Shown here: piece after piece, positions 3,519-29,200 of the stretch
Position numbering within the stretch: position 1 is the first letter of the stretch
Layout of the letters: every line of letters starts with the position of its first letter
Source of the DNA: a virus
DNA: 31,008 nt
IMG/VR virus record: IMGVR_UViG_3300025585_000122
Location: 1-31,008 of that record
Direction: 5' to 3' (one strand)
Position numbers and translations under genes: made by a program
The notes under the pieces: generated by a model
The model's input: the letters and a program-made list of their open reading frames with translations, nothing else
Databases searched by the model: none
What the model was told of the DNA's origin: nothing

Positions 3519-4124
3519 ATGGCTCTAGGTAATAGTAATAATATTATCGTCGGTGCAGCCCAACTTTGGGTGCACAAGGCTGGTGCTCTAGGCGTTGGTG
3601 GAAACCCATCATTCGTTTCAGGTACCAAGTATGCTACAACCATGGATGCGGACACAGATTTCCGTAACCTTGGATATACTATGAATGGTTTGGAAATTTC
3701 TTTCCAGCCAGACTTCGGTGAGGTTGCTGTTGACCAGGTTCTTGACGTTGCTAAGTTGTTCAAGCAAGGCATGCAAGTTAATCTAAACACAACATTTGCT
3801 GAATCTACTTTGGAGAATCTTTTGATTGCCGTTGCTGGTGCTGATTCAGATCTCGAAGATGGTGTCTTCAATATGAAGGCAGGTACTCTTGGTGAGTGCC
3901 CCGTCGAACGTGGTCTAGTTGCAGTAGGTCCAGGAACTGGTGATTGCGAAGAAGGTTCTAATAAGGAACGTGTATATGTTGCATATCGTGCACTCTCAAT
4001 TGAGAATGTAACCGTATCGGCAAAGCGTGATGAGGCTACAATGTTTGAAGTTTCATTCCGTCTTCTTCCAGAAGATTCAACAGGATCTTACGGTAAGATT
4101 ATTGACCGCACAGTTAGTGCATAA
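3519..4124 (+). CDS. Major tail protein (tail tube subunit)
   Basis: A 201-residue, beta-rich protein with glycine- and alanine-rich N-terminus, at the usual site just upstream of the tail chaperones and tape measure. The sequence (LGYTMNGLEISFQPDFGEVAVDQ, in parts) and the late 'MFEVSFRLLPEDSTGSYG' segment fit the tube-subunit fold, in which a ring of six copies stacks to form the tail. It has its own promoter, a leader with GAGGTG, and a strong terminator, so it forms a single-gene transcription unit. All seven arginine codons that I count are CGN and none are AGA, in contrast to the AGA-rich tape measure; this expression-related codon choice fits a very abundant structural protein. Certainty comes from the agreement of position, isolation and codon use. 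Confidence 0.8.
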   Translation: MALGNSNNIIVGAAQLWVHKAGALGVGGNPSFVSGTKYATTMDADTDFRNLGYTMNGLEISFQPDFGEVAVDQVLDVAKLFKQGMQVNLNTTFAESTLENLLIAVAGADSDLEDGVFNMKAGTLGECPVERGLVAVGPGTGDCEEGSNKERVYVAYRALSIENVTVSAKRDEATMFEVSFRLLPEDSTGSYGKIIDRTVSA

Positions 4125-4144: not shown

Positions 4145-4175
4145 AGCCCAACCAAAAAGGTTGGGCTTTTCTGTT
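4145..4175 (+). terminator. Rho-independent terminator after the major tail gene
   Basis: A perfect 9-base-pair stem, AGCCCAACC (4145-4153) with GGTTGGGCT (4159-4167), encloses an AAAAA loop and runs into TTTTCTGTTT. It starts 20 bases after the major tail stop and ends directly before the next promoter. Confidence 0.92.
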
Positions 4176-4184
4176 TGGTATAAT
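4176..4184 (+). promoter_or_regulatory. Extended -10 promoter giving a leaderless chaperone message
   Basis: TGGTATAAT (TG 4176-4177, TATAAT 4179-4184) abuts the terminator's T tract. Six bases separate the box from the ATG at 4191, which is where transcription is expected to begin. No ribosome binding site exists in that space, so the message should be leaderless. No -35 box is visible because the terminator stem occupies that position. Confidence 0.75.
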
Positions 4185-4190
4185 TAATAT

Positions 4191-4877
4191 ATGGCAACTC
4201 AAATTTACAAAACATTAGATTTAACATTATCTGACGGATCTATTATAGAACTATCTCCACTAAAGATAAAATATTTAAGAAAATTAATGATTGTTTTTGA
4301 AAATGTCAAGGTAGCAAGAAATGATATAGATGCAATAATTGCATTAACACAATGTGCACGAGTTTGTATGGAACAGTTTAAGCCAGAAATTTCTACGAGT
4401 GTTGAGGTTTTAGAAGATTACATTGATTTAGATGCAATCTATAAAATATTAGACATAGGCGCTGGAATTAAGATTAAACAAGACTCAGAAGAAACTGTTA
4501 AGGATCAAGCCACAAAGGGTGGTTCTAGTTGGGAAGATCTAGATATAGCAAAATTAGAATCAGAGGTTCTACTTTTAGGAATATGGAAAAATTATGAAGA
4601 ATTGGAAAAATCTATTTCCTTACCAGAGTTGATGGGGCTATTGACTCAAAAACGAGAATCTGACTATGAAGAAAAAAAATTTTTTGCTGCAATCCAGGGC
4701 ATAGATTTAGATAAGAAAGTTAAAAAAACAAATGAATGGGAAGACCTGAAGGCCAGGGTATTCAGTAAGGGCAAGGCAAAAGATTCATCAGACATCATGG
4801 CTCTACAAGGCATTAATGCACAACAAGCAGGCTTTGGTATAGGTATGGGCCTAGACTATGAAGAAATAACCGACTAA
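4191..4877 (+). CDS. Tail assembly chaperone, long form (G+T-like in one frame)
   Basis: A 228-residue protein between the major tail and tape measure genes, the place of lambda gpG/gpGT-type chaperones, which keep the tape measure soluble and recruit tail subunits. Residues ~8-95 form a G-like domain (DGSIIELSPLKIKYL, then EDYIDLDAIYKILD). After a linker, residues ~112-175 (SSWEDLDIAKLESEVLLLGI, ending EEKKFFAAIQG) resemble the T-like extension that is normally reached only by a ribosomal frameshift. Here both lie in one uninterrupted frame. The start is probably leaderless: ATG six bases after TATAAT, with no ribosome binding site. The following gene is a paralogue of the first domain only. 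I looked for a slippery heptamer near the domain boundary (about 4480-4560) and saw none that was convincing. Confidence 0.72.
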   Translation: MATQIYKTLDLTLSDGSIIELSPLKIKYLRKLMIVFENVKVARNDIDAIIALTQCARVCMEQFKPEISTSVEVLEDYIDLDAIYKILDIGAGIKIKQDSEETVKDQATKGGSSWEDLDIAKLESEVLLLGIWKNYEELEKSISLPELMGLLTQKRESDYEEKKFFAAIQGIDLDKKVKKTNEWEDLKARVFSKGKAKDSSDIMALQGINAQQAGFGIGMGLDYEEITD

Positions 4878-4893
4878 AAATAAAAGTCGACTA

Positions 4894-4902
4894 TGGTATA
4901 AT
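4894..4902 (+). promoter_or_regulatory. Extended -10 promoter for the short chaperone gene
   Basis: TGGTATAAT (TG 4894-4895, TATAAT 4897-4902) is identical to the motif at 4176 and 21436. No -35 box is seen. A start near 4909 would give a leader of about 20 bases with GGGAGG (4918-4923) four bases before the ATG at 4928. Confidence 0.75.
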
Positions 4903-4927
4903 TAATTAACATATCTCGGGAGGAAAA

Positions 4928-5257
4928 ATGAGTTCAAAAACTAACACTCAGTCTAAGAATGAACTATCTTTAATTGATGGAACAAAGTTTGAAGTTAAGC
5001 CACTAAAAATTTCTTTACTTAAGCCGTTCCTTGCAAAGTTTAGTCAATTGGCTGATGTAGCAGACGATAATACAAAGTCTATGGACGTTTTATTGGATTG
5101 TGTTCAGATTGCATTTAAGCAGTACCTACCAGCATTTGCAGATAACAGAGAGATCATTGAGGATAATCTTGATCTTCCAACAGTATACAAGGTTATCGAT
5201 GCAGCATCTGGAATGCAGTTGTCTGAATCTACAGGTCTTTTAAATTCAGTTAAATAA
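4928..5257 (+). CDS. Tail assembly chaperone, short form (G-like paralogue)
   Basis: A 109-residue protein that aligns along nearly its whole length with the first domain of the preceding gene. The shared skeleton is L-x-L-x-DG near residue 15, E-x-x-PLKI, a phenylalanine and a leucine-cysteine pair, Q-x-x-P, ED-x-x-DL, YK-x-x-D and a final glycine; by eye roughly a quarter to 30 percent of positions are identical. It lacks the T-like extension and no second reading frame follows before the tape measure start at 5280. It would therefore be the counterpart of the short, unshifted G protein, made from its own promoter and a good GGGAGG site. In phages with frameshifting, the short form is the more abundant one, and this stronger-looking translation start agrees with that. 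Confidence 0.7.
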   Translation: MSSKTNTQSKNELSLIDGTKFEVKPLKISLLKPFLAKFSQLADVADDNTKSMDVLLDCVQIAFKQYLPAFADNREIIEDNLDLPTVYKVIDAASGMQLSESTGLLNSVK

Positions 5258-5279: not shown

Positions 5280-8200
5280 TTGGCTGATGATTTAAACGCA
5301 AATATTAATGTCAATATTGACACTAAAGATGCGTTAAGACAATTAAGACAACTACAGGCAGCATTAAGTAGATTTAATCAAGCCTTAACTCAAGGCAACA
5401 TTGCATCAGTAAATGCACAAAAAGGTTTAACTGATCAATTAATCCAATCAATAAATGCTACTGGAAAATTTGTTGCATCCCAAAAAGAGATAGCAACTAG
5501 CACTAAGTCATTTACAGATGCCTTAGAAAAAAATAAGTTATCTCTAAAAGAATATTTTAGGTATACTGCTGCTGCTGCTACTGCTGACACAAAGGTATTT
5601 AGTAAGGCTTTTGCTGCTGAAAGAGAAGTCTTAAATCGTGCTCGTAGAGACCGTGTAAAACTTTTACAGTCTCAGTATATTCAATTAACTAATGCAAACG
5701 GAGAACTTGTTAAGGTTCTTCAGGTTGTTCCAAAACACCTTGAGATGGTTAATGGAAAGTATGCTGATTATGCTACAAGAGTACAGATGGCTGCACAGCG
5801 CCAACAATTTCTTAATCAGTTATTAAAACAAGGCTCAACACAACTATTAAATTTTGGTAAGAACACTCAGTGGGCTGGTCGTCAGTTAATGGTCGGTTTG
5901 ACAATACCATTAACAATGATGGGAACTGCTGCTTCACGTGCCTTCATGGACATGGAAGAGGCTTTAATAAAATTTAGCAAGGTTTATGGTGATACTTTTA
6001 CATCTAATAGCGCAACAGAAAAGGCTATACAAGATATAAAAAGACTTTCTCTAGAATTTACAAAGTATGGAATTGCTGCAAAAGATACAATCGACATGGC
6101 CTCATCTGCAGCAGCGATGGGTCTTGTTGGAGATGCTCTTGAGGCACAGGTAAGACAAGCAACCAGATTATCTGTTCTTGGACAAGTTGAACAGCAACAG
6201 GCTTTAGAAACAACAATATCTTTACAGAATGCTTTTGGAATATCAACTGAGCAATTAGCACAAAAGATTAACTTTTTAAACGCAGTAGAAAACCAAACAG
6301 TACTTTCAATTGAAGATTTGACAATCGCAATACCAAAGGCTGGACCTGTTGTTAAACAACTTGGTGGATCTGTAGAAGATCTTGCATTCTTCCTTACAGC
6401 AATGAAGGAAGGTGGAATCAATGCTTCAGAAGGTGCTAACGCATTAAAGTCTGGACTTGCAGCATTAATTAATCCTACAGATAAAGCATCTGAAATGCTT
6501 GCTGGCCTTGGGGTTAATATTAAGGGAATTGTTGAATCTAATGCGGGTGATCTTAAGGGAACTGTAGTAGGTTTTGCAAGAGCGCTAGATACACTTGATC
6601 CACTAAATCGTGCTCGTGCTATTGAACAACTATTTGGTAAGTTCCAGTTTGCACGTTTATCAACATTGTTTAAAAATGTTGCTACAGATGGAAGTCAAGC
6701 AGCAAGAGCATTTAGACTGGCTGGTGCCTCTGTAGAAGAACTAGCAATTTTATCTGAACGAGAATTAGGAAAAGTAGAAAATGCTGTAGGGGTTAAATTT
6801 AAGAAAACAGTAGAGCAGTTAAAGTTGGAGTTAGTTCCAATAGGAAAAGCATTTTTAGAAGCCCTAACACCAGTTGTTAAATTTATTGGAGACATTCTTA
6901 AAAAGTTTAATGGGCTAAGTGACGGAACCAAAAAAGTAGTAACAATTATTACTGGTGTATTAGGATTGATTGCCCCAGTAGCACTTATGTCTATAGGTCT
7001 TGTTGCCAACGGTGTTGCTAACTTAATTAAATTCTTTGCAATGCTACGTGGCGGAATTGCAAAATTAAATGGCGCAAATCAAGTATTAGGTGGAGGATTT
7101 GATTATTTAACTCAACAAGAAATAGAAAATCTTGCAGAAACAAATGCATTACATACATCTCATCAAAATCTTATTTCTACATTTAATGTTGAGGCTGGAG
7201 CATTAAACGCATTGGCAGGAGCATATGCAAATGCTACATCACAAGCAAGGGCTTTAGCAGCATCGGCACCTGGATTATTCAATACTTCACCTGGTGTTAA
7301 AGCAGTAACACCTCCTCCAGTTAAAGGATATAAAGATGGTGTATTCAGTGTTCCAGGAACTGGAAGTGGCGACAAAGTTCCAGCAATGCTTGAACCAGGC
7401 GAAACAGTTGTATCAAAAGATAATACAGAAAAGTATGGTCCACTACTTCAGGCCATAGCAACAGATTCTGTTCCTGGATATAGAAAGGGCAGATACGATG
7501 TTGCTGCTTCACAGTCAGATAGACTGTTTGCCTCTGGCACAGTAAAGCCTGGAGCAACTCAAGATTTTATAATTAATGAATTAGGAAGAATCAGAGATTT
7601 ATCAGATAAGGAATTAATAAGTTATGCCAAAAGAACTGGCAAAGTTTTAGCAGATACATCAAAGGAAACTTTAGAGGGTGTCAGAGAAGCAATAATTAGC
7701 GAACTCAAAGATATCGTTAATGAAGCAAGGCAACTAGAAGGTGGAGTAACTGAAGGTAATATATCTTCAATAGGAAAGAGATTTGATGTAGAAAAAGGCA
7801 TGAGCAGGATGGGTGCATATGCGCCAAAGATTGATCAGCAATGGAGAGATCAATTTTCACACGTAGGAACTGCAAAAGTAAAAACATTAGAAGAATTAAG
7901 AGGAATGAGCCTAAAGCCTTCAGTTGCAAAGGCGCTAGATGTAATGGAAAGTCAAGGACTCGGAGGAAAAGACTTTAGAGTTGCTGATGCTTTTGGTTAT
8001 AGTATGCGTGGAAATATTAATAGAGGTATGGCAAGCAAAGGTTCTGCTGCTGCATATGAAGAACAATTTGGTAAAGGAAGTTTAGTAAAAGACTTTGTTT
8101 CTGAGTTTGAAAGAACTGGATCTGCAAAATGGGAGCAGATGACAAAAATTATGGGTGCAGATTTTGATTCTTTGCAGGGTCAAATACAAATTTATGACGA

Positions 8201-11200
8201 CGCACTATTAGAAAAAATTAAGTTATGGCAAGAGCAAAATGCCAATAAGCCTATTCCAGATTTATTAACAGACGACGTAATTCACGGATTATCTGCTGAA
8301 GTTGAAGCACAAATTCAAACAATAGCACCAGAGTTTAGTGCACTAATTAAAAAAGCAAAAGAAACTATAACTGCAATAAGAATAAGCGTAAGCGAAGAAG
8401 AGTTGCAGATGCTAAATCAGGCAGCATCAGAGGCTGGAATTAAAACAAAAACTCCATTCGGTCCAGAAACAGGAAATGCAAAAGTATTAAATCGTGAAGC
8501 AAGAACAAGCGGACAAATTTTAGGAACAACAACTATAGATGGATTGAATGATGGTGCAGGAACTGCATCTCCATCAAAGAAGAGCAAGAAAACAGGAAAT
8601 GATATTGGCGACGGTTTAATAATTGGAATGCATGAAAAAGAAGTTGCTGTTAAAGCACAATCTGATAGACTTGCAAATGCTGCATTACCTACTGCATCTG
8701 AGACTGCAGATAAAGTAAGCAGAATGGATTTAGCAAATAAAGCATTTTATGATGACTTAAATAATGAAGAAAACAGAGATATAAGACAGGTATTAAAGTC
8801 TCAAGATAGACAAAGAAGAAAGAGGGGCGTAGGACGAAGAAAAGTCCAGCCAATTGCAGAAGATCAAAAGACTGATTCTGTTTCTGCATCCATTCGTGTT
8901 TCATCTAAGAAGACTATTAAGAGCGCTAAAGTATTGGCAGAAAAGACAGAACAAACAGCACAGGCACAAGAACAAGCAGCAAATATTGCAAATCAAACAA
9001 CCATAACAATGACGGATGTTAAGGATACAACACAAAGAAATGCAGAAGTATTAGAAACTACAAATCAGGATCTGCTTACACAGGGTCAACTAAATGATGC
9101 TATTTCTCAAACTGATCAAGATAGATCAGAAATTTTAGACAAGACTCAACAGGTCGAACAAGAAACACTACAGGCAAAACAAGAAGAATTAGATGCTGCT
9201 AGAATAAATGCACAGCAAGCAATGGATCAGGCAAGCATACCAGACGGAGCACAAACACTAATAGACCCAGCAACTGGAGAAATGATTCCATATGGAGCAT
9301 CATCTCCAATAATGACAAGCAAAGAAAGAAAGATGGCAAAGAAAAAGGCTCTTGCTGAAAAAAGAGGTTTAAGAAAAGAAAAAGTTCAAAGATTCTCTGG
9401 AAAGGTTTCTGGAGGATTAGGTGTTGCAGCAATGGCAGCAGGTGCATTGGGTGCGCCAACTGGAGTAACTGCTGCTCTTGGTACTGGAGCAATGGTTGCT
9501 CAATTTGCCCCAATGCTTGCTGGAATGGGTCCAGTTGGTTGGGCAGTAACTGCAATAGCAGCACTTGGTGTAGGTGCTAAAGTACTTAATGATAAGTTAA
9601 CTAAAGCAGCAGAAGCAACAGCAACATATGTTAAGCAAACATCAATTACTGCAGGCTTATTAAAGAAGATTGGTGAACAACAGGGCACTGTCGGTGCTTC
9701 TGAAATTATGTCAAAGCGCAGAGGTGGATCTGCTTTTGGATTATACAATGAGGCTGCAAGAAAAGGAACAGATGCAAGCGAAAGATTTATGTCTGGTGAG
9801 GCTGGACAACAAATGCAAAAGACCTTTACAGAAGTTCTTCAAAAACAAGGAATGGATGTAGCGACAAAAACTTTTGCTATGCAACTTGCAGGTGCAGTTT
9901 CTGACGGGACTATATCTGGAAAACTTGCTTCAGATATTGCGTATCAATTAGGAGTTAATCTTAAAGATTCGTCAATTACAATGCAGGTTGATGGATATTT
10001 AAGATCATTAATAGGAAGAGATGGAGAAGATTTAACAAAAGATCCTCTTGCTGTAAGGACTAGAATTGCAAATGTTGCAGATATTAGATCACAAGATGCT
10101 TTATCTAAATTACAAAGTGGCGATCAAGGATCTAACAGCATATGGTCTCAAATAGGAACTCTTGGTCTAATCGGCAAGGCAAGTGGTTCTGGTTTGGCAG
10201 CAGAGTTTGCTGCATCAAGTTCTAATGCAATTGAGGTAGCACAAGCACAAGCAGACGCTATGGCTTTATATTATGAAGATCAAATAAAATCTTTAGAAGC
10301 ACAAAAGGCAGCAACAACCGATAAACAAAAGCAATTAGAGATAGAAACAAAAATAAAGGCAATGCAGGATCAGCAAATTGCTGGAATGCAAAGAATGAAC
10401 TCATTGGTTGCTGCTAGATTAGAAAGTGCGGTTTCAGGATTCAATGAAAATATAAATAGTGGACAGACTGGTTTGGGTTGGTTAAGCGATGTTGGAAGAA
10501 GAGAAGATGCTTATTTTGATGCATTAAAGGGTAATGTTAAGGGCAAATATAAAGGAACAGCATTTGAAGGATCTGCTCAACAGGCACTAAATACCTTAGC
10601 AAGGTCTGACGAAGATCCATCGTTTATGAAAACAGATAGAACAATGGACATTGCTGCTGCTAAATCATTTGAAGCAAAAATGCAATTGGTTATGGAGTCT
10701 GGACAAATGAATCCAGATCAAGTTAATACAATTCTTGAAATTTTTAAAGGAAATCTAAAAGAGGCAGACGCATTAGTTAATATTGGAATGAGAACAGTTG
10801 GCGGACAAAAGACCGCAGAACTGTTTGGATTCTTTAAAAACTTTAAAGATAAAAAGAGTTCTCAACTTAATATAGGCGCATTAATTAGATTATCAAAGAG
10901 TAACCCACAACAATTTGACTCAGTTTCTAATGCTATGGCTTTATTACAACAAAGCGATGGTTTAGAAATAGATATGGAAGCATATATAAAGACTGTAGGT
11001 CTACCAGGACTTATAGCATTATCTGAAAAACTAAATAACATTGAAGCACTTAAATCTCCAATAACAAAAGAAGTCGTTACTAAATTTGGACAAGACAATA
11101 ATGTTAATATGCAGGGTGTAATTGACAACTGGGATTATTACGGTGCAATGCCAGATGTAGTTCAAAAAGAAGCACTGCAAACATATACAGCACTTTATGA

Positions 11201-14132
11201 TAATTTAATTCATTTTGAAAATGAAGATGCTAGAAGAGCCTGGGCAACAAAGCAGGCAGAACTAGAAGCACTGGGTGCTGGGGCTAAAGGTTCTAAAGAG
11301 TATGAAGATGTTTATAAGACAAGATTTGAATATTACACTGCTGGAACCCTTAACGATCCAACTCAGGCTGCTAAGATAGCAAATCAGCAGACAGAGGCAA
11401 AATACGGAAGCATTGAAACTATTAAGGCTAATATTCCTCCAGCAGGTCCAAAGGATGCGGGTAAAGGAAATAATCCATTAGATTTCTTAGACTCTCTTGC
11501 AATGAGAATTAAAAATGTTCGTGACGGCGCATTCGATGCAACAAAGCCACTACAGTCAATGATTGCAGCATTTACAAGTAAAAAGGCTCAAAAGGATGCA
11601 TCAAAGATGTTTACCATATTTGATGGTTTGCAGCAAAGAATGTTAAAGATGAAAGTTCCAAAGGAATTTAGAGACATGATTATGGGTATGTCATCTGAAG
11701 ACTTTAGCAAATTAGCAAACCTTAAGGGTGATAAGGCAATATTTAAGTTTGCAGAAGGAAAGCCAAAGACAAAATCAAACATAACTGGCCTAACCAAAAC
11801 TGGACAGGCAATTATGCAAACATACAGAGAAGCACAGGCTGGAGAGTACCAGTTGGCTCAAAAGGAAACAGTTCAAGATATTAAGGATCAAAATACAGCA
11901 TTTAATCAATTAGTGGCATCTGGAATGAGTGCAACAGAGGCGCTTGCAGTTGTAGAAGATCAAGCAGTAGCCTCTGCTGTTGCAGCAGGAGCAGTTGGTA
12001 AAACTGGATCAACTGAAATGAAACAATTTGTCAAAGATATTAAAGAAGCAAATAGTGCTCTTGAACGCCAAAAAGTTATTAATGACATGATTAATAAAAA
12101 TGAAGAATTTAAGTTATTACAACAAATGCCACAACTTGCATCATCATTAAAGGCAACTGGAATGTCTGTAGAACAAATTGATGAAGTTTTAAATGACCCA
12201 CAATTAGCAAAGGTATTAATTGAAGATCTAAAAGATGGAAAAATTGATGCAAAAGAAATTGCAGACTATCTAAATTCTATTCCTGCAAGAAAAGTTATCG
12301 AGATACAGACAAAGATGAACAAGGGTGACTTCGCTGGAGCAGCAGCAGAGGGCAGAGATATAGTCGATCAGATGTTTGATATTCAAGAAAGATTAATCAG
12401 AACTGGTGCTGATCCAAGAAGCACAGCGATGGTTGATAAGATGAAGGCCAATACAAAAGAAATTAAGGCTGCAGAAAATGCAGCAAGAGCACTCAGAAAA
12501 CAAATTGAAGATATTAATGAAGAAATATCTGATATGCAAAGAGAAATTGAAATTAATTATACTCGTCCTATTGAGGATATGAATGAAAAGATTAGCGATT
12601 TTAATAGAACCTTAGAAGTCGGTGGAGAGTACGAAATCGGCGGAAAGAAGATGAATCTTGACTTTAAACTCAGTAATAGATACATGGAGCAATTAAATCA
12701 AGAGTCAAATAAACTTTCTAATGATTTACAAGTAATATCTCATCAGTCAGATGCTATTAATGAAAAATATGATAAGCAGGCAGAATCTTTAAGAAAAGTT
12801 GCAGAAATAAATGATCAAATAACCAAACAGCAACAGAATCAACTTACACTTGCAGATGCAATTACTGAAGGAGATATATCTGCTGCTGCTGCTGCAGTAC
12901 AACAAAGTCGTGCCGATGCATCTGGAATGTTCCAAGATCAAGCAATGGCTGCGCTTGAACAATCAAGAACCAACGAACTTAATGCATTAGTGGGGCCAGA
13001 AAGTGGTTTGACACAAGAGCAAATTCAAGAAAGACAATATCAGATACAGCAAGAGTTGTACAGGATTGAAACTAGTCCAGAAAGAACTGCTATTAAAGCA
13101 GAAATGCTTAGACTTGAAGATGAAATTTATAAACTTGAAGAATTGCGTGAGGCAAAATTATTAGAAATACGTAAAAAAGAAGATGAGATTTATGATATAC
13201 AAGAAAAACAACTAGAGCCATTAGAAAGAAAAATTGATGATCTGACATATGAGAATCAATTATTGCAAGATCAGATAGACGCACTTGTAGAACAAATAAC
13301 CGTTCTTGGAATGAATAGAGATGAATGGGAAAGAGTTAAGGCAAAGATTGATGCATCTGCATTGGCAGCGCAAAATTTTGGTGCAGCACTTGCTGGTCTT
13401 TTAGCAGCAGTAAATGCAATAAATTCAGCATGGGATGCAACCCTAGCAAAAATTCAATCATACTCATCAATGTCTTCTCCTGCAGTTTCTCCAATTGTTA
13501 AGCAGGCAGAAGAAATATTAGACACAGCAAAAAAGAATGATGCGGAAGCAAAAGATAAGGTAGACGCTGCAACAAACCTTGCTAATGCTCAGGCATATGT
13601 AAATAAAATAAATGCAGATGCCAAGACTGCAAGCGGAAGAAATTATGTAACAGATGCTCAAATGGATAGAGCACTTGCTGCAGCAGATAGCAAGTATGGA
13701 ACAAATCTGTATGGTGGTAATGCTACTAAGGCACCTATTGTAGATGAACAAACAAAAATTGCTGCAATGAGGGCTGCAGCGAACCCAACACCAAAACCAA
13801 CATATACTGGATATAGAATTAATGACAGATCTTCTGGCGGATTAATTATTCGAGGGTACGCCAATGGCGGTAGAATTAAGCCAATAGGTACAGATACTGT
13901 ACCAGCATTATTAACCCCAGGTGAATTTATAATGAGTAGGTATGCTGTCAACTCTTACGGCTTAGATAAGATGAAAGCAATTAATAATGGCGATTCAATT
14001 GGAGAGTCAGTATATAATTACAGCATTAATGTTAATGTTAAGTCTGATGCAAAGCCAGATGAGATTGCAAATGCAGTAATGGTACAATTAAAGAGAATAG
14101 ATTCTCAAAGAATTACAGGAGTTAGAATATAA
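5280..14132 (+). CDS. Tail tape measure protein, very large
   Basis: A 2950-residue protein that sets tail length and is ejected with DNA. The start is TTG at 5280 with GGGGGTG at 5267-5273; the nearby ATG at 5276 stops at once. Residues ~200-465 match the TP901-type tape measure core (FMDMEEALIKFSKVYGD, GGINASEGANALKSGLAALI). Hydrophobic, membrane-type stretches lie near 553-590 and 1372-1440. A loop motif, DKVPAMLEPGE, appears near 697-707 and again as DTVPALLTPGE near 2870. A SPSKKSKKTGNDIGDGL segment lies near 1095. Gln/Ala-rich helices follow (~1170-1320), and heptad-rich coiled coils fill ~2393-2530 and ~2595-2685. I saw no cysteine in the protein. The region ~710-1080 looks globular and unassigned. 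The stop overlaps the next ATG. Confidence 0.95.
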   Translation: MADDLNANINVNIDTKDALRQLRQLQAALSRFNQALTQGNIASVNAQKGLTDQLIQSINATGKFVASQKEIATSTKSFTDALEKNKLSLKEYFRYTAAAATADTKVFSKAFAAEREVLNRARRDRVKLLQSQYIQLTNANGELVKVLQVVPKHLEMVNGKYADYATRVQMAAQRQQFLNQLLKQGSTQLLNFGKNTQWAGRQLMVGLTIPLTMMGTAASRAFMDMEEALIKFSKVYGDTFTSNSATEKAIQDIKRLSLEFTKYGIAAKDTIDMASSAAAMGLVGDALEAQVRQATRLSVLGQVEQQQALETTISLQNAFGISTEQLAQKINFLNAVENQTVLSIEDLTIAIPKAGPVVKQLGGSVEDLAFFLTAMKEGGINASEGANALKSGLAALINPTDKASEMLAGLGVNIKGIVESNAGDLKGTVVGFARALDTLDPLNRARAIEQLFGKFQFARLSTLFKNVATDGSQAARAFRLAGASVEELAILSERELGKVENAVGVKFKKTVEQLKLELVPIGKAFLEALTPVVKFIGDILKKFNGLSDGTKKVVTIITGVLGLIAPVALMSIGLVANGVANLIKFFAMLRGGIAKLNGANQVLGGGFDYLTQQEIENLAETNALHTSHQNLISTFNVEAGALNALAGAYANATSQARALAASAPGLFNTSPGVKAVTPPPVKGYKDGVFSVPGTGSGDKVPAMLEPGETVVSKDNTEKYGPLLQAIATDSVPGYRKGRYDVAASQSDRLFASGTVKPGATQDFIINELGRIRDLSDKELISYAKRTGKVLADTSKETLEGVREAIISELKDIVNEARQLEGGVTEGNISSIGKRFDVEKGMSRMGAYAPKIDQQWRDQFSHVGTAKVKTLEELRGMSLKPSVAKALDVMESQGLGGKDFRVADAFGYSMRGNINRGMASKGSAAAYEEQFGKGSLVKDFVSEFERTGSAKWEQMTKIMGADFDSLQGQIQIYDDALLEKIKLWQEQNANKPIPDLLTDDVIHGLSAEVEAQIQTIAPEFSALIKKAKETITAIRISVSEEELQMLNQAASEAGIKTKTPFGPETGNAKVLNREARTSGQILGTTTIDGLNDGAGTASPSKKSKKTGNDIGDGLIIGMHEKEVAVKAQSDRLANAALPTASETADKVSRMDLANKAFYDDLNNEENRDIRQVLKSQDRQRRKRGVGRRKVQPIAEDQKTDSVSASIRVSSKKTIKSAKVLAEKTEQTAQAQEQAANIANQTTITMTDVKDTTQRNAEVLETTNQDLLTQGQLNDAISQTDQDRSEILDKTQQVEQETLQAKQEELDAARINAQQAMDQASIPDGAQTLIDPATGEMIPYGASSPIMTSKERKMAKKKALAEKRGLRKEKVQRFSGKVSGGLGVAAMAAGALGAPTGVTAALGTGAMVAQFAPMLAGMGPVGWAVTAIAALGVGAKVLNDKLTKAAEATATYVKQTSITAGLLKKIGEQQGTVGASEIMSKRRGGSAFGLYNEAARKGTDASERFMSGEAGQQMQKTFTEVLQKQGMDVATKTFAMQLAGAVSDGTISGKLASDIAYQLGVNLKDSSITMQVDGYLRSLIGRDGEDLTKDPLAVRTRIANVADIRSQDALSKLQSGDQGSNSIWSQIGTLGLIGKASGSGLAAEFAASSSNAIEVAQAQADAMALYYEDQIKSLEAQKAATTDKQKQLEIETKIKAMQDQQIAGMQRMNSLVAARLESAVSGFNENINSGQTGLGWLSDVGRREDAYFDALKGNVKGKYKGTAFEGSAQQALNTLARSDEDPSFMKTDRTMDIAAAKSFEAKMQLVMESGQMNPDQVNTILEIFKGNLKEADALVNIGMRTVGGQKTAELFGFFKNFKDKKSSQLNIGALIRLSKSNPQQFDSVSNAMALLQQSDGLEIDMEAYIKTVGLPGLIALSEKLNNIEALKSPITKEVVTKFGQDNNVNMQGVIDNWDYYGAMPDVVQKEALQTYTALYDNLIHFENEDARRAWATKQAELEALGAGAKGSKEYEDVYKTRFEYYTAGTLNDPTQAAKIANQQTEAKYGSIETIKANIPPAGPKDAGKGNNPLDFLDSLAMRIKNVRDGAFDATKPLQSMIAAFTSKKAQKDASKMFTIFDGLQQRMLKMKVPKEFRDMIMGMSSEDFSKLANLKGDKAIFKFAEGKPKTKSNITGLTKTGQAIMQTYREAQAGEYQLAQKETVQDIKDQNTAFNQLVASGMSATEALAVVEDQAVASAVAAGAVGKTGSTEMKQFVKDIKEANSALERQKVINDMINKNEEFKLLQQMPQLASSLKATGMSVEQIDEVLNDPQLAKVLIEDLKDGKIDAKEIADYLNSIPARKVIEIQTKMNKGDFAGAAAEGRDIVDQMFDIQERLIRTGADPRSTAMVDKMKANTKEIKAAENAARALRKQIEDINEEISDMQREIEINYTRPIEDMNEKISDFNRTLEVGGEYEIGGKKMNLDFKLSNRYMEQLNQESNKLSNDLQVISHQSDAINEKYDKQAESLRKVAEINDQITKQQQNQLTLADAITEGDISAAAAAVQQSRADASGMFQDQAMAALEQSRTNELNALVGPESGLTQEQIQERQYQIQQELYRIETSPERTAIKAEMLRLEDEIYKLEELREAKLLEIRKKEDEIYDIQEKQLEPLERKIDDLTYENQLLQDQIDALVEQITVLGMNRDEWERVKAKIDASALAAQNFGAALAGLLAAVNAINSAWDATLAKIQSYSSMSSPAVSPIVKQAEEILDTAKKNDAEAKDKVDAATNLANAQAYVNKINADAKTASGRNYVTDAQMDRALAAADSKYGTNLYGGNATKAPIVDEQTKIAAMRAAANPTPKPTYTGYRINDRSSGGLIIRGYANGGRIKPIGTDTVPALLTPGEFIMSRYAVNSYGLDKMKAINNGDSIGESVYNYSINVNVKSDAKPDEIANAVMVQLKRIDSQRITGVRI

Positions 14133-21435: not shown

Positions 21436-21444
21436 TGGTATAAT
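21436..21444 (+). promoter_or_regulatory. Extended -10 promoter giving a leaderless tail-tip message
   Basis: TGGTATAAT (TG 21436-21437, TATAAT 21439-21444) starts right after the stop codon of the FN3-like gene. Eight bases lie between the box and the ATG at 21453, and they contain no ribosome binding site. Transcription is expected at 21450-21453, so the message is leaderless or nearly so. It is the fourth intergenic TGGTATAAT-type motif before a structural gene with a clear match. Confidence 0.75.
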
Positions 21445-21452
21445 ATTTAATT

Positions 21453-21893
21453 ATGGCAAAAATTCCATTACCAGAAAGAGGACAACCGCTTGATGTAACA
21501 TACATTTATAGTATGGTTGACGCTATCAATAGTTTGTCTGCAAGCATTCCATCTACCACTTATAAATATTTAACATTAGATATTCCTGGAAGACCTTCAG
21601 AAACAGAAAAAACGTCTAATGCAAAAATAGTTTTAGGATATAAGCAAGTAACAACAACGCAAACAGTAAAGCCTGGGGACACTGTTTCTTTTGATTATGA
21701 TTATGCTGATTTTAAGTTTCCACCAATTGTAACGGCAACACCAGTAAACATTACTGGAACGGTTGCTGGTAAAAATGTTTCTGTTGTAATTGATCCACCA
21801 ACAACAACAAAAGTTACTGGTCTAGTAAGATTTTATGAAGGCGGAGATGCAACTGTGGGGGTAAACCTAATGATAATAGGGATACCCAATTAA
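21453..21893 (+). CDS. Small beta-rich tail-tip protein
   Basis: A 146-residue protein, the last gene of the structural module. A short N-terminal helix (VTYIYSMVDAINSLSASI) is followed by strands and a C-terminal sandwich with FDYDYADFKFPPIVTATPVN and VGVNLMIIGIPN. The 'F-x-x-P-P-x-V' strand followed by a last hydrophobic strand is what one sees in H-type-lectin-like tips of phage fibres, and a leading helix can trimerise. A receptor-binding tip is therefore possible but not shown. It has its own leaderless-type promoter separated from the rest of the tail operon, so its amount can differ from its neighbours. The stop overlaps the ATG of the zinc-ribbon gene. I recognise no named family with certainty. 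Confidence 0.65.
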   Translation: MAKIPLPERGQPLDVTYIYSMVDAINSLSASIPSTTYKYLTLDIPGRPSETEKTSNAKIVLGYKQVTTTQTVKPGDTVSFDYDYADFKFPPIVTATPVNITGTVAGKNVSVVIDPPTTTKVTGLVRFYEGGDATVGVNLMIIGIPN

Positions 21894-22794: not shown

Positions 22795-23103
22795 GTGACT
22801 AATAAACAGAAGCGTTTTGCTCTGTTGAGTAGGTTTGACAAACACTATAAGTTTAAACTGGGACAAGAGCCACGCTATAACAAGTGGGTTGAGCAATGGT
22901 CTGCCGATTCCTTAATAGAATCTTATGGACTAGAAGTTTGCTATGACTTACTAGAATATTATTTTGAAGTTAGCGAAAGTCCGTCCTGGAATAATTTTGC
23001 ATATATGGCAGATGATATACTAGAAGCAAAAGAACAGCAGAACAAGGATTTAAAGGAACGAGAAGAGCGTAGAAAGATGGCTAAGGAGTGGTTGAGTGAA
23101 TAA
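22795..23103 (+). CDS. Unknown protein upstream of the helicase, possible replication accessory
   Basis: A 102-residue, mostly helical protein starting with GTG one base after the previous stop. It is rich in Trp and Tyr in its middle (PRYNKWVEQWSADSLIESYG, LLEYYFEVSESPSWNNFAYM) and ends in a charged coiled-coil-like helix (EREERRKMAKEWLSE). It ends eight bases inside the helicase gene, so the two are coupled. Small helical proteins directly upstream of a replicative helicase are often loaders or adaptors; with no ATP-binding motif it would be of the non-ATPase kind. I cannot name a family, so loader function is a guess from position only. AAGGAG-like sequence at 23082-23087 within this gene serves the next start. 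Confidence 0.7.
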   Translation: MTNKQKRFALLSRFDKHYKFKLGQEPRYNKWVEQWSADSLIESYGLEVCYDLLEYYFEVSESPSWNNFAYMADDILEAKEQQNKDLKEREERRKMAKEWLSE

Positions 23104-24322
23104 TACAGAATCAAAGTTAATCTCAGCCGTATTAAAAGATAAGCAGGCTCATGTATTATTACAGGCCAATGTGGAAAGCATACTCAGCACTCATGTGGAT
23201 GTCTGGCAGTTTATAAGAAAGTATTATGAGCATAATGGAACAGTACCTCCATCAGAGTTAGTAGTTGAAAAGTTTAGAGACTTTGAACCTATTAATGGGG
23301 TTGGGTCAACAAAACACCATCTTGAAGAATTACAGGCAGAGTATCTTACAAATAGTTTAAAGGATATTATTAGATCTGCTGCGACAGATGTGCAAGGCGG
23401 TCTTGGTGTTGAGGCATTAGAAATATTAATTACAAAAACAGCAGAACTTAGAAAAAATACTGCAGCCATTCGTGATATTGATGTTACTGATTTAGATTCA
23501 GCAGTTGCATATTTTGAAAACCTAAAGAAGCAACAAGAGGCTGGCGCTATAGGAATTAAAACAGGTCTTCCAGGATTTGACAACTACCTACCTTCTGGAA
23601 TCATGCCAGGGCAGTTAGGAGTCTTTCTTGCATATCCAGGTATAGGAAAGTCTTGGCTATCTCTCTATTTCGCTGTACAGGCTTGGAAACAGGGTCGTAG
23701 CCCAATGATCATAAGTCTTGAAATGTCTGAGGTTGAAGTTAGAAATCGTGTATTTGCAATTATGGGGGAGGGAGTTTGGTCACATCGTAAATTAAGTGCT
23801 GGTGAAGTTGAGATGGACATGTTAAAGTCCTGGCACACTAAATATGTTCAGGGTAGACCAGAGTTTCATATTATTTCAAACGACACTGGTGGAGATATTA
23901 ATCCATTAGTTCTTCGTGGAAAGATTGATCAATATAAACCAGACTTTGTTATTGTAGACTATTTGCAACTCATGAGTCCAAATCAAAAGTCAGATAATGA
24001 AACTGTTCGCATGAAGAATCTTTCTCGTGAATTAAAGTTGATGGCTATTTCAGAAGAGGTTCCTATTATTGCTATCTCTTCTGCTACTCCTGACGATGTA
24101 ACCAAACTTGAAACCGTGCCAACTCTTGGTCAAACAGCATGGTCAAGGCAGATTGCTTACGATGCTGACTGGGTTTTGGCACTTGGGCGAGGTACAAATA
24201 GTGACATTATTGAATGCGTATTTAGAAAGAACCGTAATGGTTTTATGGGAGAATTCTTAGTTCAGGCTGATTTTGACAAGGGATATTACAGATATAAGGA
24301 TTATGAAGATAAGACAGTATAA
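23096..24322 (+). CDS. dnaB: Replicative DNA helicase, DnaB-type
   Basis: A 408-residue helicase starting with GTG at 23096, eight bases before the previous stop, after AAGGAG. The N-terminal ~140 residues are helical, as in the DnaB/primase-interacting domain, and the RecA-like motor follows. Walker A is PGIGKS near residue 181-186, followed by WLSLYFAVQAW; Walker B is VIVDYLQLMSP near 282-292, a very typical DnaB form. Motif H3 (PIIAISSATP, where most DnaB proteins have Q or S then Q) and the arginine-rich C-terminal strand (ECVFRKNRNGFMGEF) are present. The protein is shorter than cellular DnaB, mostly at its N-terminus. It would form a hexamer that opens the fork for the polymerase in this module, acting with the primase encoded downstream. 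Confidence 0.93.
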   Translation: MNNTESKLISAVLKDKQAHVLLQANVESILSTHVDVWQFIRKYYEHNGTVPPSELVVEKFRDFEPINGVGSTKHHLEELQAEYLTNSLKDIIRSAATDVQGGLGVEALEILITKTAELRKNTAAIRDIDVTDLDSAVAYFENLKKQQEAGAIGIKTGLPGFDNYLPSGIMPGQLGVFLAYPGIGKSWLSLYFAVQAWKQGRSPMIISLEMSEVEVRNRVFAIMGEGVWSHRKLSAGEVEMDMLKSWHTKYVQGRPEFHIISNDTGGDINPLVLRGKIDQYKPDFVIVDYLQLMSPNQKSDNETVRMKNLSRELKLMAISEEVPIIAISSATPDDVTKLETVPTLGQTAWSRQIAYDADWVLALGRGTNSDIIECVFRKNRNGFMGEFLVQADFDKGYYRYKDYEDKTV

Positions 24323-24323
24323 T
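24318..24323 (+). promoter_or_regulatory. Possible -10 box overlapping the helicase stop codon
   Basis: TATAAT overlaps the helicase TAA (24320-24322). Seven bases separate it from the ATG at 24331, and there is no ribosome binding site, matching the leaderless pattern elsewhere. It lacks the TG extension and a -35 box, so it is weaker evidence than the other promoters. Confidence 0.35.
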
Positions 24324-24330
24324 ATGCGGT

Positions 24331-24657
24331 ATGGAGACATATCAGCACAAACCCATAAAAAGGTTTGGTTTAAATGGGGTCATCAATGATGACTCTGCAA
24401 TATACAGATTACAGCAAGAATATATCAGACTATTGGTATCAGAAATGCGACTATCTGGGTATGTTCCAAAATTTGACATCGATCCACAATTTACACTATC
24501 ATATAATGAAAACAAAAATTACTTTGAATTTACATTAAGCGTATACGGAATATATATTGGGAGAAAGAAAGCAGAATGGATACTAGGAATAGACGGAGTG
24601 AAGCCAGTGTATACACAACCAGCCAAGTTAAAAGAGTACTCGCAGGATCTGGCATAA
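24331..24657 (+). CDS. Unknown protein between helicase and primase
   Basis: A 108-residue protein starting eight bases after the helicase stop, without any ribosome binding site, but after a TATAAT box that might make the transcript leaderless. It reads as a helix (YRLQQEYIRLLVSEMRLSGY), then strands (FDIDPQFTLSYNENKNYFEF, TLSVYGIYIGRKKAEWIL), and a C-terminal tail. The antiparallel strands and the nearby basic residues would suit a small nucleic-acid or protein-binding fold, but I find no motif to name it. Its last 82 bases are shared with the primase gene in another frame. Placement between helicase and primase suggests a replication role such as a helicase-primase adaptor; this is inference. 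Confidence 0.7.
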   Translation: METYQHKPIKRFGLNGVINDDSAIYRLQQEYIRLLVSEMRLSGYVPKFDIDPQFTLSYNENKNYFEFTLSVYGIYIGRKKAEWILGIDGVKPVYTQPAKLKEYSQDLA

Positions 24658-25520
24658 CTGTAGAAAAAGAAGCAGAGTCTGAGTACATAGTATTTTGTCC
24701 GTTTCACTCAAACCATAGAACACCTGCTGGAGAAATAAATAAGTTTAGTGGATTGTTTTTTTGTTTTTCTTGCAGCAAGACGGCAGACTTAGTAGAACTT
24801 GTAATGCATTTTTCTAATAGAACATATTTTGAGGCTGTTAGATTTATTAAGAGTAAAGAGGTTGAAACAGATATTTTATCTGAGGTAAATTATAAGTTAG
24901 TTGAAAAAGAAGAGTGGACAGAGTTTGATATTTCTGTTGTAGATAGATTGCACGAACAAGCACTAGTTTCTGAAAGAGCAAAAGATTATTTTATTAGAAG
25001 AAAGATTACTAAAGATTCTGTAATTAAATTCAAACTTGGTTACTCTGAAAATCAGGACATGATATCAATACCAGTATATAACCATGAAGGTTTATGTGTT
25101 GGCTTTGTAGCAAGATCAGTTGAAGGTAAAGAATTTAAGAATACGACCAAACTACCCAAATCTAAATTATTATTTAATTTAAATAGAGTTAAAACTGCAT
25201 CTAAGGTTTATGTAGTGGAATCATCATTTGATGCCATTAGATTAGATCAGGTTGGTTTTCCAGCAGTCGCTACATTGGGTGCAAATGTATCATCCAAACA
25301 AATAGATTTGCTTCAAAGGTACTTTAGTGATATAATTATTATTGCTGATAACGATGAGGCAGGCGGTAACATGAAAGAAAAGATAGTCGAAAGATTAAGT
25401 GGGAGTGTTACCGTAATTAACTTAGATAAACAATATAAAGATATAGGCGATATGGACGATAAGTCAATAAAAGAATTGGAATACCAATTTGACAAATCAA
25501 TACTGTCTATGCTAAACTAG
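24576..25520 (+). CDS. dnaG: DNA primase, DnaG-type
   Basis: A 314-residue primase. The zinc-binding domain comes first: CPFH at residues 41-44 and CFSC at about 63-66, the standard CHC2 arrangement with a spacing of 18 residues. The TOPRIM catalytic fold follows, with the acidic motif VYVVESSFDAI near residue 211-221 (a glutamate in the position of the usual E-G-x-x-D start) and IIADNDEAGG near 255-264 as the metal-binding D-x-D. No helicase domain is fused, so it must work with the DnaB-type protein upstream. It starts 82 bases inside the previous gene in a different frame; GGGAG (24559-24563) lies 12 bases upstream. It ends 20 bases before the SSB gene, and the SSB promoter is buried in its last codons. 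Confidence 0.92.
   Translation: MDTRNRRSEASVYTTSQVKRVLAGSGITVEKEAESEYIVFCPFHSNHRTPAGEINKFSGLFFCFSCSKTADLVELVMHFSNRTYFEAVRFIKSKEVETDILSEVNYKLVEKEEWTEFDISVVDRLHEQALVSERAKDYFIRRKITKDSVIKFKLGYSENQDMISIPVYNHEGLCVGFVARSVEGKEFKNTTKLPKSKLLFNLNRVKTASKVYVVESSFDAIRLDQVGFPAVATLGANVSSKQIDLLQRYFSDIIIIADNDEAGGNMKEKIVERLSGSVTVINLDKQYKDIGDMDDKSIKELEYQFDKSILSMLN
25489..25518 (+). promoter_or_regulatory. Sigma70-type promoter for the SSB gene, in the end of the primase gene
   Basis: TTGACA (25489-25494) is followed after 18 bases by TAAACT (25513-25518), preceded by TG (25510-25511), an extended -10. Transcription would begin near 25525, just before AAAGGAG (25529-25535) and the ATG at 25541. An extra promoter suits a protein needed in bulk. 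Confidence 0.58.
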
Positions 25521-25540
25521 AGAAAACAAAGGAGAAAACT

Positions 25541-26203
25541 ATGAGCGTTATTAAGGGATTAAAAAACATCAATGCCCTGCTCGACAAGAAAACAGATGAA
25601 ACAGGTCCAAAGGTTCGTTGGCTAAAGTTGGCTGATGGACAAGCAGTAAAGATTCGATTCATTGAAGAATTGGATGAGGACTCAGCAAATTATAACGAGA
25701 AGCGTGGCCTTGCTCTTGTTGTTAAAGAACATACAAATCCAAAGGACTACAAGCGTAAGGCTGTAGATACACTTGATACAGAAGGTCGTGACTGGGCTGA
25801 AGAGATGTATCGTAAGGATCCAAAGGGTAATAGCGGATGGCGTGGTCGTCTTCGTTTTTACTGTAATGTTCTTGTAGACGACGGCATTGAGGAAAAGCCC
25901 TATGTTGCAATTTGGTCTATGGGAGTAAGCAAGCAATCTGCATTTAATACTATTCGTGAGTATGCACTTGAAACAGGAAGCATCTCAAACATTGTTTGGA
26001 AGTTAAAGCGTAATGGTCAGGGAACTGAAACATCATACACTTTGATTCCTTCTGCTCCAGATAAGGAGCCTTTTAACTGGGAAGGCATTGAACCATATCC
26101 ACTAGAGAAGGCATTGCGTCGTGTTCCATATGCGGAACAAGAAGCATTCTATCTAGGATTTGATTCGCCTTCATCTACATCAGCGACGAACATCGACTGG
26201 TAG
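25541..26203 (+). CDS. Single-stranded DNA-binding protein, phage type
   Basis: A 220-residue protein with AAAGGAG six bases before its ATG. It has the composition of phage SSBs of the gp32/gp2.5 kind: a basic, mixed N-terminal part (LKLADGQAVKIRFIEELDED), an OB-like core rich in Trp, Tyr, Arg and Lys (GWRGRLRFYCNVLVDDGIEE), and a central segment ending VWKLKRNGQGTETSYTLIPS. The single cysteine excludes a zinc site like that in T4 gp32. The C-terminus ends in small polar residues rather than a classical acidic tip, unusual for SSBs that contact partner proteins this way. Most arginine codons are CGT, as in the capsid and tail tube genes, indicating high expression. It lies between primase and polymerase, consistent with its role at the fork. 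Confidence 0.78.
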   Translation: MSVIKGLKNINALLDKKTDETGPKVRWLKLADGQAVKIRFIEELDEDSANYNEKRGLALVVKEHTNPKDYKRKAVDTLDTEGRDWAEEMYRKDPKGNSGWRGRLRFYCNVLVDDGIEEKPYVAIWSMGVSKQSAFNTIREYALETGSISNIVWKLKRNGQGTETSYTLIPSAPDKEPFNWEGIEPYPLEKALRRVPYAEQEAFYLGFDSPSSTSATNIDW

Positions 26204-26206
26204 TAG

Positions 26207-29200
26207 ATGAACTACGTACCACTTCATTTACATACCCACTTTTCACTATTCGATGGTATTGGGTTGCCATCAGAATATGTTGACCGTGCTATAAAGTTGG
26301 GTATGCCTGCAGTATCAATTACAGACCATGGCTCCCTTTCTGGCCACAGAGAAATGTATCGTATTGCTAAAGCAAGTGGTATAAAGCCTATTCTTGGCAT
26401 AGAAGGTTATATGTGTGAAGATCGCTTTGATCAAAGAGATAAAGGCGAACGAACCGATCAATTAGATATGGTTTATAACCATATAATCCTTCTAGCCAAG
26501 AACAAGGTAGGCTTAGAAAATTTAAATAAACTAAACGAAATTGCTTGGACAGAAGGTTATTATAAGAAGCCAAGAATAGATTTTGAAGTTTTGTCTAAAT
26601 ATAAGGAAGGCATTATTGTGTCTTCTGCCTGTCCAAGTGGAATTGTTGCTAAGTCAATCGAACTTGGCGAACTTGGAATGGCAAAGAAATATATTAAATG
26701 GTTTAAAGAAGAATTTGGTGATGATTATTATCTTGAGGTTATGCCACATAACGATGAATCAATTAACAGAACAATTCTACAGTTAGCAGATGAATTTAAG
26801 ATTAAGCCAATTGTAACTCCAGACTGTCATCATGTTGATAAATCACAAAAAGAGATTCAAGAGTTAAAGTTAATTCTTAATACTTATTCTAATAAGATTC
26901 AAAAAGATGCTACATATGAAAAATCTAAAAAGCAAGGCGATTTAATGAAGCGACTAGATTACTTATATGGTGCAGACAGACAGATGTCATTTAATAAGTT
27001 TGATATCCATCTACTGTCATATGAGGAAATCAAAGAGGCTATGGAAAAGCAGGCGGTATGGAGAACTGATATTTATGAAAATACAATCGACCTTGCCAAT
27101 AAGATTGAAGACTATGATATACAAGATGGACTAAACCTATTGCCAGTTCAATATAAAAATCCAGATAAGCAATTAAAAGAACTTGCTATGGAGGGCTTAA
27201 AGGATAAGGGTCTTGATACTAATCAAGAATATCTTGATAGACTTGAGGAAGAACTAAAGGTTATTAAAGATAAAAACTTTGGACCTTACTTCCTTGTTGT
27301 TCAAAGCATGATTTCATGGGCTAAAAAAGAAGGCATCATGGTTGGTCCAGGTCGTGGATCATCTGCTGGTTCTTTATTGTGTTACGCACTGGGTATTACT
27401 GATATTGATCCATTAAAACATGGCCTATTGTTTTTTCGTTTTATTAATCCAGAGCGTAATGACTTCCCAGATATTGATACTGATATTCAAGATTCTCGTC
27501 GTGATGAAGTAAAAGATTATCTTGTTAGACAATATAAGCATGTTGCATCTATTGCTACATTCTTAGAATTTAAAGATAAGGGTGTTGTAAGAGATGTTGC
27601 TCGTGCATTAAACATACCATTAGTAGATGTCAATAAAGTTTTAAAGTTAGTAGACACTTGGGATGAATATTGTTCATCAAAAACTACTGCTTGGTTTAGA
27701 GAAAAATATCCAGAGGTGGAACAATATGGAGAACAACTTCGTGGTCGTATTAGGGGTACTGGCATTCACGCTGCTGGTGTTGTCACTAGTAAAAATCCTA
27801 TTTTTAGGTACGCACCGATGGAAACACGCAATTCTCCTGGTAGCGATGATCGCATACCAGTTGTGGCGGTTGACATGGAAGAGGCTGAAAAAATCGGACT
27901 CATCAAAATCGATGCACTTGGTCTTAAAACCTTAAGCGTTATTAATGATACATTAAAGATTATTAAGGAACGAGAAGGTACTGATATTAATCTTTTAGAC
28001 ATAGACATGGAAGATCAAAAGGTTTATCAGATGTTATCTGAAGGGTACACAAAGGGCGTCTTCCAATGTGAAGCAACACCATATACAAACCTTCTTGTAA
28101 AGATGGGTGTAAAAAATCTAGCAGAACTTTCAGCATCAAATGCTCTTGTTCGTCCAGGTGCCATGAACACTATCGGTAAAGATTATATTGAGCGTAAGCA
28201 CGGCAGACAGGCAGTAAACTACCTTCATCAAACTATGAAGCCTTTTACAGAAGAAACATATGGGTGTATCCTATATCAAGAACAGGTTATGCAAGCCTGT
28301 GTTCAACTAGGAGGAATGTCATGGTCTGAGGCCGACAAGGTTCGTAAGATCATTGGTAAAAAGAAGGATGCTAGAGAGTTTGATGCGTTTCGTGATAGGT
28401 TCGTTGATGGTGCTTCTAAGTTTGTTAGTCCTAATCAGGCTCGTGATTTATGGCATGACTTTGAAGCGCATGCGGGTTATTCGTTCAACAAGTCTCATGC
28501 GGTTGCTTATTCTACGCTCTCGTATTGGACGGCATGGCTAAAGTATTATTATCCAATTGAGTTTATGTACTCATTGCTAAAAAATGAAAGGGACAAGGAT
28601 GCACGAACTGAATATCTTATTGAAGCGAAAAGAATGGGGATTAGCATTAAACTACCTCACATTAACGATTCGGATATTGATTTTAAAATTGAGGGTAAGG
28701 GTATTCGGTTTGGACTCTCGGGGATCAAGTTTATCTCTGATAAGATTGCAGAACGATATATATCGGCACGACCTTTTAAGTCTTTCGAGGAAGTTAAAGC
28801 CTTTACATTTACGAAAGGTAATGGAGTCAACAGCAGAGCACTTGAAGCCCTAAGAATTATTGGTGCTGCAACATTCCCAGATAATCCAAGAAATGATGAT
28901 GAATTAAGAGAAAATCTTTATGAGTATTTAGGTTTACCAGAATTTACACAAACAGTTCCATCACATTATCACGCATTTATAAATCCTGTAGAAGACTTTG
29001 AAGAAAAGGGATCATTCATTCTTATGGGAATGGTTAAAGGTATTAAGCGTGGTAAGGGTTGGTCTCGTGTTGAAATCTTAGATAAGACAGGAAGTATTGG
29101 TGTATTTGATGAAGAGCAAACTACGATTGAGGCTGGACGAAGTTATATTGCACTCTGTTCTGATAATAGAATTGTCAGTGCTGTTCCTGTGGACGAGATA

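Follow-up and report, generated by a model that had tools for sequence, protein, structure and literature searches.

Few recoding events of tailed phages are as conserved as the G/GT frameshift, and it has long been asked whether the slip of the ribosome is itself important, or whether all that counts is the ratio in which it yields two proteins. The locus analyzed here, in which a long G+T-like protein and a short G-like protein are encoded by two separate genes (A and B), raises this question directly. The window, the whole stretch of DNA under analysis, is a 31,008-base virus record with a tail module and a GC content of 35%. A and B are very probably the GT- and G-type chaperones of a siphovirus-like phage near the Stanwilliamsviridae, in which a frameshift unit would have been duplicated once and the ratio of the two forms would now be set at initiation. 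The evidence comes from the layout of the locus, the homology of the two proteins, the architecture of related loci, the expression signals and the trees.

Organization of the chaperone locus

The long protein was first noticed in a sequence-only reading of the window as one unbroken G+T-like frame, and it is indeed a single open frame (ORF A, 228 aa). Genes A and B are placed between the major tail protein (MTP) and tape measure genes, which is the locus position of G/GT-class siphoviruses. Among the relatives, loci with G and T in one frame are called fused, and loci with T in a separate frame after G are called split. The features are listed below, all on the + strand.

3519–4124, +, major tail protein gene: PHROG 2175 'protein with Ig domain' (E 1e-33), a weak major tail protein match, and alignment with an annotated Streptomyces phage major tail protein
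4145–4167, +, terminator-like hairpin followed by a T-rich tail, just 5' of the A promoter (consensus scan)
4176–4184, +, extended -10 promoter of A, TGGTATAAT, ending 6 nt 5' of the A ATG (predicted leaderless)
4191–4877, +, gene A, fused long tail assembly chaperone (G+T, single frame), 228 aa
4191–4490, +, G-like domain of A (A-N), residues 1–100, fast-evolving, paralogue of B
4512–4874, +, T-like domain of A, residues 108–228: PHROG 10474 (E 4e-16); hhalign E 3e-66 against the -1-frame T ORFs of split loci
4894–4902, +, extended -10 promoter of B, TGGTATAAT; TGnTATAAT with 6/6 matches in 53/53 fused representatives
4918–4923, +, Shine-Dalgarno sequence of B, GGGAGG; a Shine-Dalgarno of at least 4 nt in 94/94 B genes
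4928–5257, +, gene B, short (G-type) tail assembly chaperone paralogue, 109 aa
5280–14132, +, tape measure protein gene, TTG start, 2,950 aa: PHROG 10030 (E 8e-100), PF10145

Hairpins similar to the one at 4145–4167 are also located 5' of gene A in relatives. Within the tape measure gene (5280–14132), two distant copies of a G-T-x-x-D-x-V-P-A-x-L-x-P-G-E motif were seen by eye.

Homology and predicted fold of A and B

The short gene had been described as a paralogue of the first domain of A only, which the alignments bear out. Residues 10–99 of A align with B at 29% identity over 91 aa (E 4e-16), the A N-domain and B compared as profiles give an E value of 9e-36, and the identity between the two ranges from 29 to 40%. 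Both A (E 2e-15) and B (E 1e-16) match PHROG 10504, and the C-terminal part of A matches PHROG 10474, a separate family, at the E value listed. Both domains are significant in the Stanwilliamsviridae-type chaperone family, with PHROG 10504 as G and PHROG 10474 as T. The C-terminal part of A is of T type, as proposed, being homologous to the -1-frame T ORFs of the split relatives (64% identity in the profile alignment, with the hhalign E value given above). The locus has the G/GT-class trait of an N-terminal domain common to a short and a long protein, the long one adding a T domain.

Structure prediction, which had been suggested as a check, gives A-N and B the same predicted topology. Specifically, the AlphaFold2 models (pLDDT 76 for A and 78.6 for B) both order the elements of the shared domain as two strands followed by four helices, a likeness of element order rather than of pairwise superposition. 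These elements are E9-12, E18-21, H26-40, H45-63, H71-77, and H80-91 in the A model, and E11-14, E20-23, H28-41, H48-66, H74-80, and H83-94 in the B model. In BFVD, a collection of predicted viral proteins, B finds its best match in an uncultured-phage protein labelled 'tail assembly chaperone' (E 9e-7, TM 0.70), and a lower, non-significant structural match is the frameshift chaperone of Enterococcus phage EfaCPT1. Weak family matches to tail assembly chaperones were also obtained (NF047360, phrog_1932). Foldseek against the PDB returned no match and PDB sequence searches nothing usable, so that no similar solved structure was found, and the Pfam matches are at chance level. The comparison with lambda gpG and gpT, from which the G and T labels had been drawn, failed at the level of sequence: profile alignment detects no similarity (hhalign E 0.41 and 0.49), and single-sequence comparison was also negative. 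From their family and structural matches and their place in the locus, A and B are presumably the tail assembly chaperones of these phages.

Two architectures among related loci

IMG/VR scans together with annotated records yielded 567 loci, of which 337 are distinct. Additionally, tblastn against cultured phages matched the Stanwilliamsviridae of Streptomyces and a few Rhodococcus phages. The fused class comprises about 250 of the 337 distinct loci, and B is present wherever the contig extends that far; not one of the sufficiently long fused genomes is without B. The split class comprises 85 distinct loci, cultured Streptomyces phages included, in which G is followed by T, in every case in the -1 frame, without a further G gene. 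A canonical heptamer (GGGAAAY or CCCAAAY) lies in the G–T overlap of 82 of these 85 loci, as GGGAAAC in 38, CCCAAAC in 35, CCCAAAT in eight, and GGGAAAT in one. The single-gene state that had been predicted for related genomes, namely one G, a -1-frame T, a heptamer and no second G, is thus what the split class displays. The same arrangement is seen in the five Streptomyces phages examined, whose T ORF is shifted by -1 relative to the G ORF and which lack another G gene before the tape measure gene. In Rhodococcus phage Dorin, the annotation of the corresponding locus is a chaperone CDS joined across a frameshift. No genuine mixed arrangement was found among the 337 distinct loci; the odd architectures of L326, L442, L469, and L499 trace to contig ends or to breaks by a single frameshift. 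A scan of genome contigs gave one match, a contig of 110 kb (L248) that is binned as an uncultured cyanobacterium but is probably of phage origin and misbinned. Its chaperone locus is split and has CCCAAAC, and its tail module is related.

Probable loss of the programmed frameshift in fused loci

The absence of a second frame after the short gene, noted at the outset, is confirmed by the coordinates, as B stops at 5257 and the tape measure gene starts at 5280. Likewise, the domain border of A was said to lack a slippery heptamer, and none is conserved there among the fused loci. Across 99 distinct loci, the density of canonical XXXYYYZ heptamers is 0.0083 per codon in the fused border vs 0.0089 in the rest of the gene, that is, at background. 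The -1 programmed frameshifting of the G/GT class is presumably absent from the lineage of the window, which has a fused frame and no conserved heptamer. Base composition was tested as the cause of slippery-site loss and found no support (median GC 0.377 vs 0.376). The T domain of A contains an A8T6 run that was weighed as a slippage site and rejected, its length varying from 5 to 8 across the fused loci; A_AAA_AAA in that domain derives from EEKKFF codons and is present inconsistently.

It might be argued that frameshifting persists inside A or B through an unrecognized signal and gives extra forms. Some heptamer does occur in 20 of the 99 fused borders, mostly as poly-A, apparently by chance, and B of the window contains T_TTA_AAT near its end. 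Moreover, three split loci of the Boydwoodruffvirinae (L083, L084, and L085) have no canonical XXXYYYZ heptamer and carry CCCGGAA at the homologous place, so slippery sites are not always canonical. However, no heptamer is conserved in the fused loci, border density equals background, B has no second frame behind it, and a separate gene for the short form already exists. T_TTA_AAT has a stop two codons on, and its reading as a relic slippery site is rejected because it is missing in L004 and most relatives. We consider persisting frameshifting highly improbable, and A and B are presumably made without a frameshift product.

Expression signals of A and B

The proposal that A and B differ in their starts, leaderless versus GGGAGG, is correct, and the difference is conserved among relatives. 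In 42 of the 53 fused representatives, an extended -10 element (TGnTATAAT-like) ends 5–7 nt 5' of the A start, compared with 1.35% at random positions, and the A genes have no strong Shine-Dalgarno. With the -10 element about 6 nt from the start and no strong Shine-Dalgarno, A has the predicted anatomy of a leaderless mRNA. Gene B is preceded by a perfect TGnTATAAT in 53/53 fused representatives, mostly 24–28 nt upstream, followed by a Shine-Dalgarno. A promoter of the same kind precedes split G in 40 of 42 cases, again with a Shine-Dalgarno. Extended -10 elements of this kind were not found at the major tail protein or tape measure genes of the same loci. Since the promoter and Shine-Dalgarno pattern of B resembles that of split G, B appears to retain the ancestral signals and A to carry the unusual ones. 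In lambda, GT is the minor form relative to G; here too, B would be made in excess and A would be the minor form. Most likely, a stoichiometry set by frameshifting has been turned into one set by two transcription and translation starts.

At 21436–21453 of the window, a further TGGTATAAT ends 8 nt 5' of the ATG of an ORF (21453–21893), which is therefore possibly a second leaderless gene.

Descent of the gene pair

In the G-domain tree, computed under a mixture model, the A N-domains are monophyletic (99/99), and the B proteins are monophyletic (97/88) and nested among the split G proteins of IMG/VR; the same pattern is obtained with 148 sequences. As A forms one clade, and B forms one clade that groups with split G, the pair arose once. 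Split G is closer to B than to A-N in 53/53 genomes (mean 58% vs 42%). A-N is the most variable part, with a within-group identity of 52.5% vs 64% for B and 66.5% for T.

The divergence of B from A-N, down to 29–40% identity, could be taken to mean that B is a paralogue with a new role outside the chaperone complex, A alone acting as the chaperone. This is improbable, as B is nearer than A-N to the ancestral G in all 53 genomes, has kept its promoter and Shine-Dalgarno, and is present in every sufficiently long fused genome.

The direction of the change is indicated by the relatives. The outgroups, namely the Streptomyces phages, the L248 contig, and Rhodococcus phage Dorin, are all split, and CCCAAAY is found at the same NDPN codons in the Streptomyces Loccivirinae, L248, the L080 group, and the L139 group. 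In the MTP and T trees, rooted on distant Streptomyces phages, the split loci are not basal. Because these trees do not put the split loci at the base, the polarity rests on the outgroup state, the common position of CCCAAAY and the G tree. We give the shared slippery site more weight than the MTP and T trees because those alignments are short and the root branches long.

The origin of A itself can be read in two ways. A-N lies on a long branch outside B and split G (96/93), which would fit an A acquired by recombination from a divergent related phage, already or later fused, with B being the old G minus T. That the tail module recombines adds to this possibility. In the tape measure tree, the fused loci form one clade that also includes three split loci, L139, L143, and L146; these have MTP, G, and T of the split type beside a fused-clade tape measure (the L139 contig is without MTP). 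These sequences are most simply explained by a swap of tape measures between the split and fused classes. However, the T domain of A is 59–60% identical to split T, as close as the split T sequences are among themselves, and the long branch may only reflect the faster evolution of A-N. Topologies that join A and B in a single clade are not rejected (AU p 0.234). We regard acquisition as unlikely, though less so than a new role of B. Duplication followed by fast change of A-N is favored because the T part of A has not diverged unusually far, and A would then be a duplicate of the resident gene. The original proposal of duplication and loss of frameshifting thus stands in its main part: the frameshifting ancestor type has been found and the slippery site is lost, while for the second copy duplication of the resident gene is favored, and acquisition of a divergent copy is the possible alternative.

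The favored duplication would have proceeded as follows. In the ancestor, one gene would have produced G and, by -1 programmed frameshifting at GGGAAAY or CCCAAAY, a minority of GT. This unit would have been duplicated once, in the ancestor of the fused lineage; one copy would have been permanently fused in frame as G+T (A), and its counterpart would have kept G only (B), with T lost. The ratio would now be set at initiation, with a dedicated extended -10 promoter yielding a leaderless A mRNA, and B expressed from a perfect extended -10 promoter with a strong Shine-Dalgarno, putting the short form in excess. A more far-reaching account of the course of events, held with moderate confidence, is that the frameshift was lost once, the duplicated pair with its leaderless-versus-Shine-Dalgarno ratio took over, and the surplus G-like domain of A then diverged.

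Comparison with known systems

The closest known systems are those of the Stanwilliamsviridae (Streptomyces phages such as Circinus, Moab, Genie2, and Coruscant), whose G and T domains are homologous to those of the window and occupy the same place between the MTP and tape measure genes. They have one G gene with a -1-frame T and no second G, whereas the window has a fused A and a separate B. In Rhodococcus phage Dorin, genes 53/54 share a homologous T domain and the same locus with A of the window; unlike A and B, they are annotated as a single gene with a frameshift join. Lambda G/GT has the same genomic position, and its -1 frameshift logic is common to lambda and the ancestral, split form, but there is no detectable sequence similarity to A or B, and the frameshift is presumably absent in the window. 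Lambda G belongs by match to PHROG 42.

A short and a long chaperone gene also occur in T4-like phages, where we take the pair to be gp26 and gp51. T4 gp26 and gp51 are paralogues, both in PHROG 150. The split-G profile has no significant similarity to either of them, no B member matches PHROG 150, and 4 of 31 split G proteins match this family weakly (best E 0.004). The two T4 genes are divergently placed, unlike A and B. The short and fused chaperone genes of T4-like phages were reported by Vladimirov et al. 2022, and, as far as the summary in PMC10274946 describes them, they are like those of the window in consisting of separate short and longer genes with the short domain in common and no frameshift. 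Going by that summary, the two-gene solution has a precedent and is not wholly new. In some subclusters of the Microbacterium cluster EA phages, two chaperone ORFs are reported to be expressed separately with no evident frameshift (PMC7302621); paralogy of a short and a fused long protein is not reported there. What is new here is the siphovirus lineage, the clear polarity with frameshifting sister groups, and the leaderless-versus-Shine-Dalgarno arrangement, and our search of the open-access literature found no paper on this lineage or this arrangement.

Frameshifting and two-gene versions of one homologous locus thus stand in sister lineages, beside homologous tape measures. As the fused lineage, a large group of uncultured phages, has two genes and its nearest relatives one gene and a slip, a decoding trick has apparently been replaced by gene duplication. 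In L139, L143, and L146, a frameshifting cassette accompanies a tape measure of the two-gene clade, and either chaperone system is found with the same tape measure type. The two versions in sister lineages, together with these three loci, suggest that the ribosome slip is dispensable and that two protein forms suffice. Annotation pipelines that expect a joined frameshift would misread loci with a fused A and a B.

Elsewhere in the window (23096–30488), DnaB helicase-, primase-, bacterial-type DNA polymerase III alpha-, and RecA-like replication genes were seen by eye.
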